Both the position numbers and the translations under genes were made by a program. DNA of 14,359 bases from NCBI GenBank assembly GCA_944358685.1, contig CALVRQ010000103.1, forward strand, positions 1 to 14,359, in the 5' to 3' direction. Below the pieces are notes generated by a model, which was not told the DNA's origin, searched no databases, and saw nothing but the letters and a program-made list of their open reading frames with translations. Positions 1 to 14,359 of this stretch are shown here, in pieces. Numbering within the stretch: the first letter of the stretch is position 1; each line of letters starts with the position of its first letter. This stretch comes from an uncultured Bacilli bacterium. Its GTDB lineage: Bacteria > Bacillota_I > Bacilli_A > RF39 > UBA660.

Positions 1-368
1 AAGCAAAAGACCAAAAAGATCCTATTCATGTTGATACTGACCAAATAACTAACGATAAAACAATTGCAATTGAAAATACCGAAGATACTCTTCAAACAAT
101 TGATTTAGATGGTGTAAATCTTGTTGTTAAAGATGCATCAGGTAATGAACTTTATAGATCTGATGAACTTGTTGTAGGAACAACTGTAGAAGTTAGTAAT
201 CCTGAAGTAGAACAACCAACTACTCCTGAAAATCCAGAAGAAGAAAAACCTGAAGAAGTTAAAGATGAAGTAGAAAATCCAAAGACTTCAGATGGAATTA
301 TGATTGCTTTTGGCTTACTTGCTGTAAGTATTGTTACAGGATTTATTGCTAAAAAGAAATTATCTTAA
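1..368 (+). CDS. C-terminal end of a sortase-anchored surface protein (5' truncated by window)
   Basis: The frame is open from position 3 to the TAA at 366-368, giving the last 121 residues of a longer protein; no start lies in the window. The first ~60 residues look like the end of an extracellular beta-rich domain. Then comes a Pro/Glu/Thr-rich, strongly acidic linker (residues ~66-91) of the wall-spanning kind. The tail has the cell-wall sorting layout: the pentapeptide NPKTS (residues 92-96), Asp97, a hydrophobic segment (98-116) and a positive end (KKKLS). This is an LPXTG-like signal with Asn for Leu and Ser for the usual Gly, so a housekeeping or class B-like sortase would be expected to cleave after Thr95. 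That reading rests on the layout and is inference for the enzyme class. A hairpin terminator follows directly. The protein's function cannot be read from this fragment. Confidence 0.8.
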   Translation, partial: AKDQKDPIHVDTDQITNDKTIAIENTEDTLQTIDLDGVNLVVKDASGNELYRSDELVVGTTVEVSNPEVEQPTTPENPEEEKPEEVKDEVENPKTSDGIMIAFGLLAVSIVTGFIAKKKLS

Positions 369-7321: not shown

Positions 7322-8362
7322 ATGGTTAAGATTGCAGGTTCTTTTTTGAAGATTCAAGATGATTTTGATAGGATAAAGACTTTAGACCGAGTTTGTGATA
7401 TGATTCATTTTGATGTGATGGATGGAAAGTTTACGGAGAAGAAAACTTTGCCTATAGAAAAAATGAAAGAGACTGTTTTAAGTTTAGATAAACCTTTTGA
7501 CGTGCATTTGATGGTTAGAAATTTAAAAAAATATATTGATGAAGTGGCTATTTTGAATCCTAGTTATATTACTTTTCATTTAGAGGCTTCTATAGATGCT
7601 TTGGATATTATTAATTATATTCATGATAAGGGAATTAAAGTTGGAATTGCAATTAATCCGGCAACTGATATTGATAAACTTTATCCATATTTAGATTTGG
7701 TTGATTTAGTACTTATTATGAGTGTGAAAGCTGGAGCTGGTGGACAGACTTTTATTGATATTACGGATAGGTTAAATATTGTTTTAAAGTATCGTGAGGA
7801 TAATAATTTATCTTATGTGATAGAGGTTGATGGTGGAATTAATGATACAACTATTCGTTATGTTCGTGATGCTGATATAGTTGTTGCGGGTTCTTTTATT
7901 ACTAATAGTGACAATTATCAAAGTCAAGTTTATAAGTTGAAAAGAGCTTTACGTAATGGATTTACTTTAGCTGAGTTGCTTGGAGTTATTGTTATTTTGA
8001 GTATTTTAGGACTTATTGCTTTTACGGCGATTGATAGTAATTTAAGAGAAAGTCGTTATGATACTTGTATGGTGCAAAGGACTAATTTAATTGAAGGAGC
8101 TAAGACGTTAGTGATTGATTATCCTGATTTGTTACCGGCAGCTTCTGGTCAGACAGTAATTCCAGTTCAGGTTTTAGATGGTGGTGGTACAGTTAATGGT
8201 CAGACAATTAAAGGTGGTTATATTGAAAAAGATTTGGTAAATCCAATGACTGATAAACCTTATATAGAATCTGATGTTAGTGTGATTATAACAAGTAATA
8301 ATGGTAGTGATTTTGATTATACAGTTAATTTTGCTAATCCTGATGAGGATTGCCATGAGTAG
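7322..8362 (+). CDS. rpe: Ribulose-phosphate 3-epimerase fused in frame to a type IV prepilin
   Basis: A 346-residue open frame with two unrelated parts. Residues 1-~207 are a TIM-barrel ribulose-5-phosphate 3-epimerase (pentose phosphate pathway): metal/catalytic residues His29 and Asp31 (MIHFDVMDG), His62 (VHLMV) and Asp170 (EVDGGI) are present, as is the phosphate-site AGSF (189-192). The loop normally written NPGFGGQ is KAGAGGQ (136-142). Residues ~206-346 are a prepilin: basic leader LKRALRNG, cleavage site Gly213|Phe214, Glu218 at +5, a hydrophobic helix (~219-235), then an exported domain with Cys249 and Cys344, a possible disulfide. Normal Rpe ends just where the leader begins. GAGGTGA (7308-7314) lies 7 nt before the ATG. 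The position rsgA-rpe is canonical; in Bacillus thiN follows, here the pilin and nifJ. No stop codon or frame change was found at the junction. Whether it is made as one protein, cleaved, or reinitiated at an internal TTG is open. Confidence 0.88.
   Translation: MVKIAGSFLKIQDDFDRIKTLDRVCDMIHFDVMDGKFTEKKTLPIEKMKETVLSLDKPFDVHLMVRNLKKYIDEVAILNPSYITFHLEASIDALDIINYIHDKGIKVGIAINPATDIDKLYPYLDLVDLVLIMSVKAGAGGQTFIDITDRLNIVLKYREDNNLSYVIEVDGGINDTTIRYVRDADIVVAGSFITNSDNYQSQVYKLKRALRNGFTLAELLGVIVILSILGLIAFTAIDSNLRESRYDTCMVQRTNLIEGAKTLVIDYPDLLPAASGQTVIPVQVLDGGGTVNGQTIKGGYIEKDLVNPMTDKPYIESDVSVIITSNNGSDFDYTVNFANPDEDCHE
7937..8362 (+). other. Prepilin module with possible internal TTG start
   Basis: This marks the pilin part of the rpe fusion. 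The in-frame TTG at 7937 would start a 141-residue protein with leader MKRALRNG, an ideal 8-residue class III signal, cleaved before Phe (FTLAELLGVIVILSILGLIA). No Shine-Dalgarno sequence precedes the TTG (upstream reads CAAGTTTATAAG), so internal initiation would be weak or coupled. The exported part is Gly/Asn/Asp-rich with one Cys near each end. No prepilin peptidase, assembly ATPase or platform protein lies in the window. It may be a pseudopilin of a com or T2S/T4P-like system encoded elsewhere. Confidence 0.6.
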
Positions 8363-11300: not shown

Positions 11301-11715
11301 TATTGCTTTGTCTTACCCTAATGTTTATGTAGCGCAGGTGTCATTAGGGGCAAATATGATGCAGACGATAAAGGCTTTTAATGAGGCGATTAAGCATGAT
11401 GGACCGTCAATTATAATTGCGTACTGTCCTTGTATATCTCATGGTATTAAGGCTGGTATGGGCTGTTCGGTAGAGGAAGAAGCTTTAGCTACTAAATGTG
11501 GATATTTTCCAATATTTAGATATGATGGAAGTAATGATAAATTTACTTTAGATAGTCCTAATCCTGATTTTAGTTTATATGAAGAATTTTTAAGTAATCA
11601 AACTAGATATAGTATGCTTAAGACGGTGAATCCAGAGAATGCAGATGTGATGCTTAAGGCTAATAAGGAAGAAGCTATTAAGAGATTTAATTATTATAAG
11701 AATTTAGTAAAATAG
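8374..11715 (+). CDS. nifJ: Pyruvate:ferredoxin (flavodoxin) oxidoreductase, single-chain
   Basis: A homodimer-type single-chain PFOR of 1113 residues, somewhat shorter than the usual ~1170. It converts pyruvate and CoA to acetyl-CoA and CO2 with reduction of ferredoxin or flavodoxin, a mark of anaerobic metabolism. Order of parts (numbered from the ATG at 8374): N-terminal pyrimidine-binding domain with YPITPSSP (~26-33); the gamma and CoA-side domains to ~600; a two-cluster ferredoxin domain with Cys660/663/666/670 (CxxCxxCxxxC) and Cys716/719/722/726; then the TPP-pyrophosphate domain. The latter has Cys783 and Cys786 (CAGCGE), Cys811 and probably Cys1020 for the third 4Fe-4S cluster, GDG at 911-913, and NTGGQASKSTP from ~945. 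The start is set by AGGAGG. The gene directly follows rpe-pilin and ends the operon at a strong terminator. A fermenting anaerobe using this as its main pyruvate exit is inference. Confidence 0.95.
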   Translation: MKKIICDGNEACVQASYLFSEVLGIYPITPSSPMPELIDKWSSDGKKNIFGLVPKVVEMQSEAGAIGLVHGILQTGVLASTYTASQGLLLMIPDMYKIAGEMLPCVIHVAARSLATHALSIFGDHQDIYATRATGFCMLASSSVQDVYHLSLVSHLASIESSLPFLHFFDGFRTSHELNKISILDSDNIKNLIPRDKLEKFRSRALNSDKPVTRGTNQNGDIYFQEMESRNRFYLNIPDVVSDYMDKINKLAGTNYKPFNYYGSLNASKVIVAMGSVCETIKEYIDYSDEEIGLIEVHLYRPFSSQYLLSVLPDSVSKIAVLDRTKEAGSEGEPLYLDVVSSLKERNLKICHGRYGLSSKDTTPGMIKAVYDMLDNPKDEFTIGIDDDVTNLSLIYEDIDISNSTEVLIYGYGSDGMVSCSKSLLSTIGNNMYVQGYFEYDSKKSGGVTCSHLRFSDKPIGSTYFVHNPKLVVISKDTYLSIFDAISNLKKDGTLLINTAMSDDKLLDALNPYKRFLKDNNITVYRVDADAIARKHNLGMKISMIMEKAIFKLIDGVDEDKATLELEDYVMRKFGVKSKEVAINNIEALRDVSLRKVELDDLEEELSFKVDSIYDALAHRKGNSLKVSDFKGYEDGSFIHTEPEMQNISEFVPEWIKENCIQCSMCSLVCPHGVIRPFLLNEEEYAKAPDYVKDKCKPALGAPNHYYVIAISAKNCTGCGVCINTCPGLKGNKALAFGKLTDSKNDMVFDYLVNNVSVKDSFKKETIKGSQLQKPKFAFHGACAGCGETAYIKLLTQLSSDNLVIANATGCSSIYGGELPNAPYSVPWVNSLFEDNAEFGYGILSGFEYGHNMVREYMLKHKDELFSKWLNNSNDYDITKEVALKINYEKHPRLKELKNYIVAKNVWAIGGDGWAYDIGFGGIDHVLSSGDNINILVLDTQVYSNTGGQASKSTPEGMVAQFAAHGKKNYKKDLARIALSYPNVYVAQVSLGANMMQTIKAFNEAIKHDGPSIIIAYCPCISHGIKAGMGCSVEEEALATKCGYFPIFRYDGSNDKFTLDSPNPDFSLYEEFLSNQTRYSMLKTVNPENADVMLKANKEEAIKRFNYYKNLVK

Positions 11716-11747
11716 TTTTTAAAAATGTTATTGTAAAATGAAAGAGA

Positions 11748-11793
11748 AACAAGTGATTTATCGAAAATATTACTTGTTTTTTTTTTTTTTTTT
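11748..11793 (+). terminator. Strong terminator of the rlmN-nifJ operon
   Basis: A 10-bp stem (11748-11757 with 11769-11778, one G-U pair) with an 11-nt loop runs into an unusually long T tract (17 T, 11777-11793). The tract also lies within the likely promoter of the next gene. Confidence 0.85.
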
Positions 11794-11803
11794 GTGATAT
11801 CTT
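11775..11803 (+). promoter_or_regulatory. Candidate promoter with poly-T spacer for the variable surface gene
   Basis: TTGTTT (11775-11780), a spacer of 17 nt and TATCTT (11798-11803) preceded by TGA, so with an extended -10. Of the 17 spacer bases, 13 belong to the T tract, so slippage would change -35/-10 spacing. Transcription would begin near 11810, just before the ribosome binding site at 11819-11826. Only 38 nt separate the T tract from the ATG, leaving little room for another promoter. Confidence 0.5.
11777..11793 (+). repeat. 17-nt T homopolymer
   Basis: The longest mononucleotide run in the window. It serves as the U tract of the operon terminator and as most of the spacer of the candidate downstream promoter. 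Tracts of this length are prone to slipped-strand length change; read errors could also alter the apparent length. Confidence 0.9.
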
Positions 11804-11831
11804 GGATATGGATAGGATAGGAGAGGCAAAA

Positions 11832-12767
11832 ATGAAAGAGAAAAAGAACCAATATATCAAGACAAATATAATAGGATTTGTAATAGGCGGTCTTATAATA
11901 AGTGGAGTTGCAGTGTATGCGGTAGTTACTTTTCCAAGTAATGAAGTTATATATGATAATGGGACAAGTGGGTTAGAATCAAATAATGTTCAAGGAGCAA
12001 TCGACGAGCTTTATAAAACATGTACAGAGGAACCATCAGCTTCAGATACTATAACTGACTTGTTACCAAGTAATCCAGATGAATTATATGAAGATGAGCA
12101 TGGAGATATCAGATATTATGGTGCAACTCCAAATAATTATGTTAGCTTTAATAATGAATTATGGAGAATACTAGGAGTAATAGATGGAAAAATAAAAATA
12201 ATCAGAAATGAAAGTATAGGAGATATGCAATGGAATTCAACTTATAACAATAATTGGAATAATGCATCATTAAAGAGTTATTTGAATGGGGAATACTATA
12301 ATAGTATAGATGGAACATATAAAAATATGATATCAGAGGAAACGTATTATTTGGGAGGAGCAACAGGTAGTAATTATAGAACCTTAACAGCAAGTGGTTA
12401 CTATAATGCCGAAAGAGATAGCAGTCAAGTATATAGTGGAAATCCAGCAAGTACAACACAATATATAGGATTAATGTATCCAGATGATTATGGATATGCG
12501 GCAGGAAGTAGTTGTTTATCAACCGCACTTAATGTCTATGATGGTAGTTGTAAAAACAGTGATTACTTATCAGGAGTAACTGAATGGTTACAGACGCCTG
12601 ATGCCGGTAATGGTTCCACTGCGGCCCGTTTGATCAGTTCTGGCTTTGTCGACGTTGGCAACCAAGTGACCGGCTCTTACGGCGTCCGTCCAGTCTTATA
12701 TCTAAACACAAATGTACAAATCACAGGAGGTGATGGGTCTCAAAGTAATCCATATACTTTGGGTTAA
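11832..12767 (+). CDS. Membrane-anchored exported protein with a GC-rich, candidate variable C-terminus
   Basis: A 311-residue protein. A short basic N-terminus and one hydrophobic segment (~13-33) point to a membrane anchor with the rest outside. A short conserved-looking segment follows (VIYDNGTSGLES, then VQGAIDELY, ~39-61), of a kind I recall before many exported domains in gut Bacillota. A Tyr/Asn/Ser/Gly-rich domain begins around WRILGVIDGKIKIIR (111-125) and ends in GVRPVLYL (284-291). This layout resembles DUF6273/C-type-lectin-like proteins, some of which are diversity-generating retroelement targets. The start is the ATG at 11832, with AGGAGAGG (11819-11826) 5 nt upstream; an in-frame TTG at 11802 is less likely. 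Codon use is unlike the neighbours: of 21 Ile codons 15 are ATA, 6 ATC and none ATT, whereas the operon genes mainly use ATT. Residues 254-288 lie in a GC-rich patch. Ligand or target unknown. Confidence 0.8.
   Translation: MKEKKNQYIKTNIIGFVIGGLIISGVAVYAVVTFPSNEVIYDNGTSGLESNNVQGAIDELYKTCTEEPSASDTITDLLPSNPDELYEDEHGDIRYYGATPNNYVSFNNELWRILGVIDGKIKIIRNESIGDMQWNSTYNNNWNNASLKSYLNGEYYNSIDGTYKNMISEETYYLGGATGSNYRTLTASGYYNAERDSSQVYSGNPASTTQYIGLMYPDDYGYAAGSSCLSTALNVYDGSCKNSDYLSGVTEWLQTPDAGNGSTAARLISSGFVDVGNQVTGSYGVRPVLYLNTNVQITGGDGSQSNPYTLG
12591..12695 (+). other. GC-rich, adenine-poor patch: candidate variable region
   Basis: Codons 254-288 of the exported protein. By count, 12591-12690 has 59 G/C and 15 A in 100 bases. 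The 100 bases before (12491-12590) have 37 G/C and the 100 after have 32. Of 35 codons only two end in A and 20 end in G/C. Most sites expected to vary read NNC or NNT (GGT, TCC, ACT, CGT, ATC, TTT, GAC, GGC, ACC, TCT, TAC), as would result from AAC/AAT template codons after adenine mutagenesis. The patch encodes PDAGNGSTAARLISSG and continues to GVRPV. A retroelement origin is inference; no reverse transcriptase or template repeat is visible in the window. Confidence 0.5.
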
Positions 12768-12770
12768 CTA

Positions 12771-12803
12771 ATAAAAGCATACTTCTTTAAGGTATGCTTT
12801 TAT
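12771..12803. terminator. Bidirectional terminator between convergent genes
   Basis: A perfect 12-bp inverted repeat (12771-12782 with 12792-12803) with a 9-nt loop, and A- and T-runs on its outer ends, so it can work in both directions. The minus-strand flippase stop codon (12800-12802) lies inside one arm. Confidence 0.8.
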
Positions 12804-14095
12804 ATATTTAAGGCTTTTTTGACATGTTTATATTGATGAAGGGTGACGATAATTATATTTATACCAGTTGCCCATACTAAGGACCATAATCCAATATGAG
12901 AGAAGCAAAGAATAAATAATGTTATGGTTCTAACTATGGTACCAATTAAGGTTCCACGCATGGCTTCTTTGGCTTTACCCATAGCTTGAAGTGAAGCGGT
13001 TAGAGGGGCTTGGATATAATGTAAGAGGGCGATTGGGGCTAATATTTTAATGTAATTGGTACCGATGGTTGTATTATAAATTAATTTCATTGGTATTCCT
13101 GGAATTAACTCAAATATTATGGTAGCGGGAATACCAATTAGTAAGGATATAAAAATGGCTAATTTAATTTTATTCCAAACATATTTATAGTGTTTTCTAC
13201 TATGAGCTTTAGAAATATTTGGTATTAGAGCTTGAGAAATGGCTCCGGTGAAGAATGATGGAAGTAATATTAGTGGCATAACATAACCATTGATAACTCC
13301 ATATTCATTAACAATAAAATTATTTGAATATCCACTTTTGATAAGTCCATAGGTTAATATGATAGGTTCTAAAAATGCACCTATAGAACCGATGATTCTA
13401 CTCATGGTGGTTGGTATGCCAATAGAAAATACTTCTTTAATATTTCCTTTATTTGGTTTTAAATCTTGTTTGGTTATTTTAAAGTTTTTTGGGATAAAGA
13501 AAAATAGAACAAAGATTGATGTTAATTCGCTTATGACATTTGTTAAGACGATAAAAGCTACAGCATATTCTATACCTAGTTTTAAAAAAATAGGAATTCC
13601 AATTATGATAGCGATTAATCTAACAAAGTCTTCAGTGACATTTGATAAAACATGCGGAAACATTTGTTGTTTACCGAAAAAATATCCTCTTAGAATACTT
13701 GATATACTGATAAATGGTAGGACGAATCCAATACATATTATAGCCCAGTAGCACCTATCTTCATTAAGCAGAGTGTGTGATATATATCCTGCGGTTAGGA
13801 ATAGTAGAATAATTATTACGATGTTTAAAGCTAATGATATTGGAATAACAGAAAAAACTAGGTTTTTATTGTTTTTATTATCTTCGGCGACTAATTTACT
13901 GATGGCTACTGGGAAGCCTAACTGTGCTAAAGCCATAAGCATGATGAAAGTAGGGGATATTAACATATATATTCCCATGCCTTCGGTGCCAATTAGTCGT
14001 GCTAAAACTATTTTTATAAACATGCTTATAATTTTAGTTAAAAATCCGCCGATTAAAAGTAAGATAACTGATTTTAAGAAGATATTTTTTTTCAT
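12800..14095 (-). CDS. SpoVB/MurJ-type MOP-superfamily flippase
   Basis: A 431-residue polytopic membrane protein with about a dozen hydrophobic helices. It belongs to the polysaccharide-transporter (MOP/MVF) superfamily, whose members flip lipid-linked wall precursors. The N-terminal region is typical of the SpoVB group: ARLIGTEGMGIYMLISP (~32-48), then GFPVAISKLVAE (~60-71), and SSILRGYFFGKQQM in the middle. It is shorter than SpoVB/MurJ (~510-530) and closer in length to B. subtilis YkvU (~445). A role in peptidoglycan or teichoic-acid precursor transport is more likely than sporulation, which cannot be judged here. The gene converges on the exported-protein gene and shares its terminator. 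No Shine-Dalgarno sequence is visible before the ATG (upstream strand reads CATATATTCTAAT), so the transcript may be leaderless or the start poorly translated. A TAA lies in frame 9 codons upstream and no ATG, GTG or TTG falls between. Confidence 0.85.
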   Translation of the reverse strand: MKKNIFLKSVILLLIGGFLTKIISMFIKIVLARLIGTEGMGIYMLISPTFIMLMALAQLGFPVAISKLVAEDNKNNKNLVFSVIPISLALNIVIIILLFLTAGYISHTLLNEDRCYWAIICIGFVLPFISISSILRGYFFGKQQMFPHVLSNVTEDFVRLIAIIIGIPIFLKLGIEYAVAFIVLTNVISELTSIFVLFFFIPKNFKITKQDLKPNKGNIKEVFSIGIPTTMSRIIGSIGAFLEPIILTYGLIKSGYSNNFIVNEYGVINGYVMPLILLPSFFTGAISQALIPNISKAHSRKHYKYVWNKIKLAIFISLLIGIPATIIFELIPGIPMKLIYNTTIGTNYIKILAPIALLHYIQAPLTASLQAMGKAKEAMRGTLIGTIVRTITLFILCFSHIGLWSLVWATGINIIIVTLHQYKHVKKALNI

Positions 14096-14238
14096 ATTAG
14101 AATATATGCTTTTGAAAAAAAATTAAAAACTATCAATTTTCCAAATTAGTAAAAAAACACATACAAAAACTAAAATTTTATATAACAAAAATCTGAAATT
14201 GGGTATATTAAGTATGTTCAAAACCTGAAATTAATCAT

Positions 14239-14267
14239 TTGCCTACTTTCTTTACTTTGTATATATT
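14239..14267 (+). promoter_or_regulatory. Promoter of the Rpn-like gene
   Basis: TTGCCT (14239-14244), a 17-nt spacer and TATATT (14262-14267). The start of transcription would be near 14274, directly before the ribosome binding site AAAGGAG (14277-14283). The rest of the gap between the two divergent genes (14096-14238) is A/T-rich and shows no gene or clear structure. Confidence 0.65.
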
Positions 14268-14288
14268 ACTTTTCTGAAAGGAGAGGTT

Positions 14289-14359
14289 ATGACAAAGTTA
14301 AAAGAAAAAAAGTTTTATAAAGCGACAAATGATCAAGTATTTAAAGCTATATTTACCCC
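14289..14359 (+). CDS. N-terminal fragment of a probable Rpn/PD-(D/E)XK nuclease-family transposase protein (cut by window end)
   Basis: Only the first 23 complete codons are in the window, starting at the ATG at 14289 with AAAGGAG 5 nt upstream. The segment TNDQVFKAIF matches the opening of the Rpn (recombination-promoting nuclease) / PDDEXK-2 family, whose members often begin with a PTND.VFKKIF-like motif. These genes are frequently multicopy and linked with mobile DNA. The catalytic residues lie beyond the window edge, so the call rests on this short motif. Confidence 0.5.
   Translation, partial: MTKLKEKKFYKATNDQVFKAIFT

Follow-up and report, generated by a model that had tools for sequence, protein, structure and literature searches.

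A GC-rich patch in a DUF6273 gene of an uncultured Bacilli bacterium is very probably the variable region of a diversity-generating retroelement target

The DUF6273 gene and its GC-rich patch

The stretch of DNA analysed (the window, 14,359 bases in length) carries on its forward strand a gene of 311 codons (11832-12767), situated between a PFOR gene and a flippase gene, whose product has a DUF6273 domain at residues 128-292 (PF19789, E 1.2e-8; 35.5 bits against a gathering score of 23.5). The reading frame is also open from an upstream TTG at 11802, and the ATG at 11832 was chosen as the start because the homologues start there. A hydrophobic N-terminal segment looked by eye like a membrane anchor, and the DUF6273 domain is probably extracellular and lectin-like. 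Structure prediction from 32 close homologues gave a pLDDT of 33.4 and a wider set of 82 was then used; no variable protein of a diversity-generating retroelement (DGR) was among the 50 matches listed, with which a C-type-lectin-like fold is still compatible. A search of viral contigs with A1 gave nine weak matches, all but one within query residues 5-67, and a profile of A2 gave no matches to PDB sequences.

The protein has 2480 homologues, of which the best 120 were used, with P0001 99% identical to the window protein. An alignment of 32 homologues showed that much of the protein is little changed, with strong change between EWLQ and VRPVL. Mean column entropy was 0.43 bits over residues 72-254, 1.56 bits over residues 255-288 and 0.59 bits over residues 289-311. 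The residue bins 60-69 (1.11 bits), 130-139 (1.40 bits), 230-239 (1.07 bits) and 310-311 also exceeded 1 bit; two of these (130-139 and 230-239, window positions ~12219-12248 and ~12519-12548) are variable stretches outside the variable region described below, and no template was found for them.

The strong change coincides with codons 254-288, which form a patch of unusual base composition. The first-pass annotation had described a sharply bounded patch with 59% GC and 15% A, and a direct count of the 105 bases at 12591-12695 bore this out (62 G+C, 59.0%; 16 A, 15.2%). Its 100-base flanks have a GC content of 37%, as had been stated, and 31%, where 32% had been given, compared to 31.3% for the whole window. 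With G/C scored as +1 and A/T as -0.85, the maximal-scoring GC segment of all 14,359 bases was exactly 12591-12695, and the best 105-base stretch elsewhere, without overlap to the patch, reached 47.6% GC. The codons of the patch are mainly NNC, NNT and NNG, in agreement with the NNC/NNT bias noted earlier. Fourteen more copies of the patch, found in relatives with one protein pattern, had a GC fraction of 0.37-0.57 and an A fraction of 0.15-0.25, with GC of at least 0.50 in 13 of the 14 (the exception was L008).

A contig scan for homologues of the target returned 78 loci, mostly in metagenome-assembled genomes (MAGs) of uncultured Bacilli. At least one DUF6273 match was present in 41 of 44 genomes of the genus, and five genomes of 1.1-1.4 Mb were rich in them (41 matches in G003, 35 in G001, 33 in G007, 31 in G002 and 28 in G006), only part of these matches being shown as DGR targets.

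The DGR operon and template adenines in related genomes

Genomes of the same genus contain a DGR operon made up of a template (TR), a small ORF, Avd and a reverse transcriptase (RT). Of the genomes searched, G001 is nearest to the window (82% identity over the PFOR gene). It has the order target (L001:10001-10924), TR (11348-11446), a 119-aa ORF, an Avd-like frame broken by a stop (L001:12041-12214) and RT (12345-13400), and the two genes 3' of the RT were read as rpsF and ssb. This RT matches RVT_1 and phrog_1423 ('Reverse transcriptase'), and its best PDB sequence is 8ub7_A ('Reverse transcriptase'), which we take to be the BPP-1 enzyme. It contains YMDD and the motif IGGLSSQ, presumably a mark of DGR RTs. 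At the Avd position an uninterrupted ORF of 111-112 aa was found in G003, G005, G007, G008 and G091; the Avd family PF22296 was matched above the cut-off in the operons of G003 and G009 and just below it in that of G005. A scan of loci with variable regions found a TR adjoining an RT in G001 and G003, and further TRs were found in G005, G008, G007 and G091. RVT_1 matches, not all of them necessarily DGR RTs, occurred in 10 of the 11 genomes first tested and 34 of the 44 of the genus. The TR pattern was present in 4 of the 44 genomes of the genus and in 2 of a sample of 386 from the family, with no matches in viral contigs.

Between G001 and G003 (L017), 200-base bins of the DGR block (about 11000-13800 of L001) have an identity of 97-100%, compared to 79-93% in the bins around it, except for one at 97%. 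This difference suggests that the block was recently exchanged. A second type of target (WWTLSP...VRPA) has its own TR of 117 bases beside a second RT in G009 (L093:160-276 and 562-2448). Three G009 targets differ from this TR at 19-21 A and 11-12 non-A positions and one G002 target at 21 A and 18 non-A positions. Beside Avd and RT, the second-class operon of G009 also has a small ORF that matches MutS domain I (PF01624, E 6.8e-8); the corresponding ORF of class 1 was below the cut-off for PF01624.

The variable region (VR) of the window gene (12594-12693, forward strand) lies within the GC-rich patch and aligns ungapped over 12595-12693 with the G001 TR, which has 99 bases (30 A, 69 non-A). 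Eleven VRs were compared with this TR and one with the TR of G007, and VRs of other length (such as L008, L009, L014 and L021) were left out. Within G001, L007 differed from the TR at 15 of 30 A and 0 of 69 non-A positions (p = 7e-10), L004 at 15 A and 3 non-A positions and L001 at 14 and 4. L017 of G003 differed at 13 A and 2 non-A positions, and the VR of G007 differed from its own TR at 15 of 31 A and 3 of 68 non-A positions. Against the G001 TR, the A and non-A differences were 15 and 7 (L013), 12 and 10 (L044) and 14 and 14 (L049) in G004, 18 and 9 (L005), 17 and 11 (L002) and 15 and 12 (L003) in G002, and 18 of 30 and 13 of 69 in the window (p = 8.5e-5), counts that include divergence of the TRs because a foreign TR served as reference. 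A near-copy of the patch beside a DGR-type RT, with mismatches confined to template adenines, had been put forward as a check in the first-pass annotation; one was found in the nearest genomes, with nearly all mismatches at such adenines.

At the template A sites the VRs of L007, L017 and L004 together have A 47, G 23, T 11 and C 9 times, and the window has A 12, G 9, T 5 and C 4 times at the 30 A sites of the G001 TR. The composition of the patch fits the DGR mechanism, since the G001 TR has 30 A and 47 G+C per 99 bases and the window retained A at 12 of the 30 sites.

Variation among the proteins follows the same positions. For 76 of 121 proteins (the best 120 of 2480 homologues plus the window; the 45 without an ungapped 38-residue VR were left out), variation per codon tracked the template adenines of the G001 TR (Spearman 0.85, p = 4e-10). 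Mean entropy was 0.52 bits at the 15 codons with no A in positions 1-2, 1.96 bits at the seven with one and 3.18 bits at the 11 with two, and in the AAY columns 12 of 836 residues were impossible from NNY codons. An exception is codon 274, which varies widely and is GGT in the G001 TR; it is AAC in the G005 TR and AAT in the G007/G091 TR.

Origin and present status of the patch in the window

The TR, RT and Avd of relatives, together with the adenine-restricted mismatches there, support what had been proposed from base composition, and the patch is very probably the variable region of a DGR target gene. In the lineage of the window, TR RNA would have been reverse transcribed with errors at adenines and the cDNA would have been written into the target over about 12594-12693, guided by the conserved GC-rich 3' end. 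This 3' end, GTCCGYCCAG (12684-12693, forward strand), is present in VRs, in the G001/G003 TRs and in the G005 TR, and not in the G007/G091 TR; by analogy it may be the position at which mutagenic homing is initiated. Since the DUF6273 domain is probably extracellular and lectin-like, on a protein with a putative membrane segment, rewriting of the VR would change what the target binds.

No RT was found in the window and no TR-like repeat within 11700-14359. The lack of an RT means that a DGR acted in trans, or that the target changed its place or outlasted its DGR. Action from a distance, as the first-pass annotation had it, is supported in a relative, G001, where L007 and L004 are both off the RT contig. 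In G001, the copy next to the flippase gene is L004, with a VR identical to that of L136; L136 matches window 11930-14112, and the PFOR contig of G001 ends in the same leader as lies upstream of the window target. At this locus, G001 thus has a plain DGR target, on a contig other than that of the RT. Between the window and this same-locus copy, the VR is identical at 66 of 100 positions and the rest of the gene at 598 of 736.

Against the DGR reading stand the 13 non-A differences of the window VR, far above a survey mean of ~1.5 per TR-VR pair; the available part of this survey also describes many VRs per TR (PMC6642488). The combination of 18/30 A and 13/69 non-A differences implies either that the window's TR differs from that of G001 or that the patch drifted. 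None of the other TRs tried fits the window VR better than the G001 TR: the ungapped A and non-A differences were 17/30 and 16/69 for G005, 18/31 and 22/68 for G007/G091, and 23/32 and 26/67 for G008, a count that a possible indel may inflate. Eight of the window's 13 non-A differences are common with another TR or VR and five are private. P0001 differs from the window protein by T178A, Q278H and G284D; two of the three lie in the VR, and residue 284 corresponds to a codon that has no A in the TR of G001. The variable bins outside the VR (residues 60-69, 130-139 and 230-239) likewise count against the DGR reading.

Drift of this kind is what would be expected if a past DGR made the patch and the lineage then lost its RT and TR, a reading that falls just short of an even chance. 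The five private differences favour it, and two of them are silent (TCC to TCT, CGC to CGT), although a diverged TR would yield the same differences. In the available text on Treponema denticola, DGRs have remote targets, and isolates without RT and TR keep leftover ones (PMC4891356). Loss of the RT is also consistent with a 1,520,450-base contig, the contig named for six target clusters (P0001, P0003, P0016, P0024, P0064 and P0091), which was the longest contig of none of the RT clusters (best 120 of 2877) or Avd clusters (best 120 of 137); in comparison, a contig of 966,690 bases was named for both target cluster P0026 and Avd cluster P0241. This absence is an indirect argument against a DGR being active at present in the species of the window, the link of the 1.52-Mb contig to the window being itself indirect and the RT clusters being the best 120 of 2877. 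The chances that the window's genome still carries a DGR are about even.

Instead of homing at the window's locus, the patch could have come from a paralogous target through gene conversion or duplication, which we consider unlikely. Targets do come and go between loci, and the gap between the PFOR and flippase genes has no target gene in G005 (95 bases) and G010 (32 bases). In G001, L001 (10402-11051) and L006 (3786-4435) share at least 650 identical bases, the VR among them, and the 200 bases upstream are 86-96% alike, so copying or duplication between targets also occurs, unless this identity reflects an assembly fault; it could also be a recent duplication. Conversion from a paralogue, which the first-pass annotation had offered as an alternative source, thus has support from L001/L006. 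Conversion, however, copies diversity and does not create adenine-restricted differences, which it alone does not explain, and the GC border of the patch falls at the border of TR homology and not at that of a longer conversion tract. Without a retroelement, the sharp borders and the codon use, which departs from that of the remaining gene, could reflect a foreign insert or constraints of protein structure on codons; this was dropped as extremely improbable because the borders match those of TR homology, and the patch recurs in relatives with a matching TR and with residues differing at fixed codons.

The shared leader and comparison with known systems

Upstream of the target gene, the window contains a terminator-like hairpin (11740-11786, forward strand; -15.5 kcal/mol, z -4.2), with similar sequences upstream of the targets of relatives. 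The hairpin overlaps a run of 17 T (11777-11793), the sole single-base run of T or A of at least 10 in the window, which is followed by a conserved leader (TGATATCTT...GGAGAGG, 11795-11826) on the same strand. We read the leader as a putative extended -10-like site and ribosome-binding site. A promoter scan gave eight sites compared to 7.2 expected by chance, none of them at the poly-T leader, so the proposed role of the leader rests on its conservation. A terminator scan of the window gave no terminator, including none at the upstream hairpin, and Rfam gave no match at the gathering score.

The leader pattern, consisting of six T and the last part of the leader and therefore mostly missing T-runs shorter than six, occurred at 33 sites in 5 of 44 genomes and at none for the reversed control. 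For 31 sites (the window and 30 fetched), 23 lead to an ORF with VQ(G/D)AIDE, three to a close variant and five to neither; two of these five (L185 and L209) directly precede a DUF6273 match. The T-run lengths and the folding exclude three of the 31, which lie at the edge of a contig. At the remaining 28 sites (among L181-L210 and the window), the T-run was 7-8 bases long at eight, 16-22 at 19 and 36 at one, with none of 9-15; the lengths come from MAG assemblies and are provisional, and they compare paralogues and species, not sites within a strain. Hairpins were strong at many, not all, of the long-tract sites and weak at most short-tract sites.

This arrangement raises the speculative and rather doubtful prospect of a repertoire in two layers, in which DGRs acting in trans would rewrite scattered DUF6273 binding sites and slippage in the poly-T would switch each copy on or off. 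A cell with a genome of ~1.3 Mb would then both write new receptors and randomly choose which to display. Among the papers listed by a literature search, none joined DGRs with phase variation, poly-T or slippage, or DGRs with RF39, Bacilli or Mollicutes. Homopolymer tracts are known from phase-variable promoters such as those of the vlp genes of Mycoplasma hyorhinis. A second case is sabA of Helicobacter pylori, as given in the available portion of PMC2715451. As in these promoters, a long single-base tract lies upstream of a putative -10-like site, the genes appear to be surface-protein genes, and the length differs between copies. Unlike in vlp and sabA, the lengths compared here are those of different paralogues and species.

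A further hairpin lies 78 bases 3' of the VR (12771-12803, forward strand; 12-base perfect arms, -15.0 kcal/mol, z -5.3). This is probably a two-way terminator between convergent genes, and it was not seen at the same-locus copy of G001.

The DGR of Bordetella phage BPP-1 is composed of mtd, TR, avd and brt. The system described here resembles it in the C-terminal VR of the target and, in relatives, in a single operon of TR, Avd and RT, in changes at template adenines and in an RT whose best PDB match is 8ub7_A. It differs from BPP-1 in residing in what appears to be a cellular genome and not a phage, in the lack of an RT in the window, in DUF6273 in place of Mtd and in an additional small ORF that separates TR from Avd. 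DUF6273 targets of DGRs are described from gut phages, with a C-type-lectin-like fold by modelling, in the available parts of PMC11792537 and PMC10743442. These share the Pfam domain and the C-terminal VR with the window target; as far as those texts extend, they adjoin their DGR, whereas the window target is chromosomal, between the PFOR and flippase genes, and has a putative membrane segment. Several targets remote from the core module are a feature in common with T. denticola as the accessible text presents it, as would be leftover targets in a lineage that lacks RT and TR; each T. denticola isolate there has 7 or 8 targets (PMC4891356) compared to 28-41 DUF6273 matches, not all shown to be targets, in five genomes here.

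The window gene is thus very probably a DGR target of a known kind, and what stands out as unusual is the apparent size of the target family and the shared leader. A base-composition patch alone led to the proposal of a DGR target without an RT nearby, a type of remote target that, according to the part available, a large contig-based survey would miss (PMC8144416). Small genomes rich in DUF6273 genes, two or more DGR classes and a common leader element make the genus one in which the service of many targets by one TR, the spread of targets between loci and possible copy-by-copy switching are testable.

Two further features lie elsewhere in the window. The ORF end at 3-368 (forward strand) encodes a C-terminal protein piece without a Pfam match, with an NPKTSD end, a hydrophobic tail and lysines, and was read by eye as a sortase-type anchor. 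A ribulose-phosphate 3-epimerase (PF00834) and the N-terminal motif of a type IV prepilin (PF07963) share one ORF of 346 aa at 7322-8362 (forward strand), through either a fusion or a lost stop.
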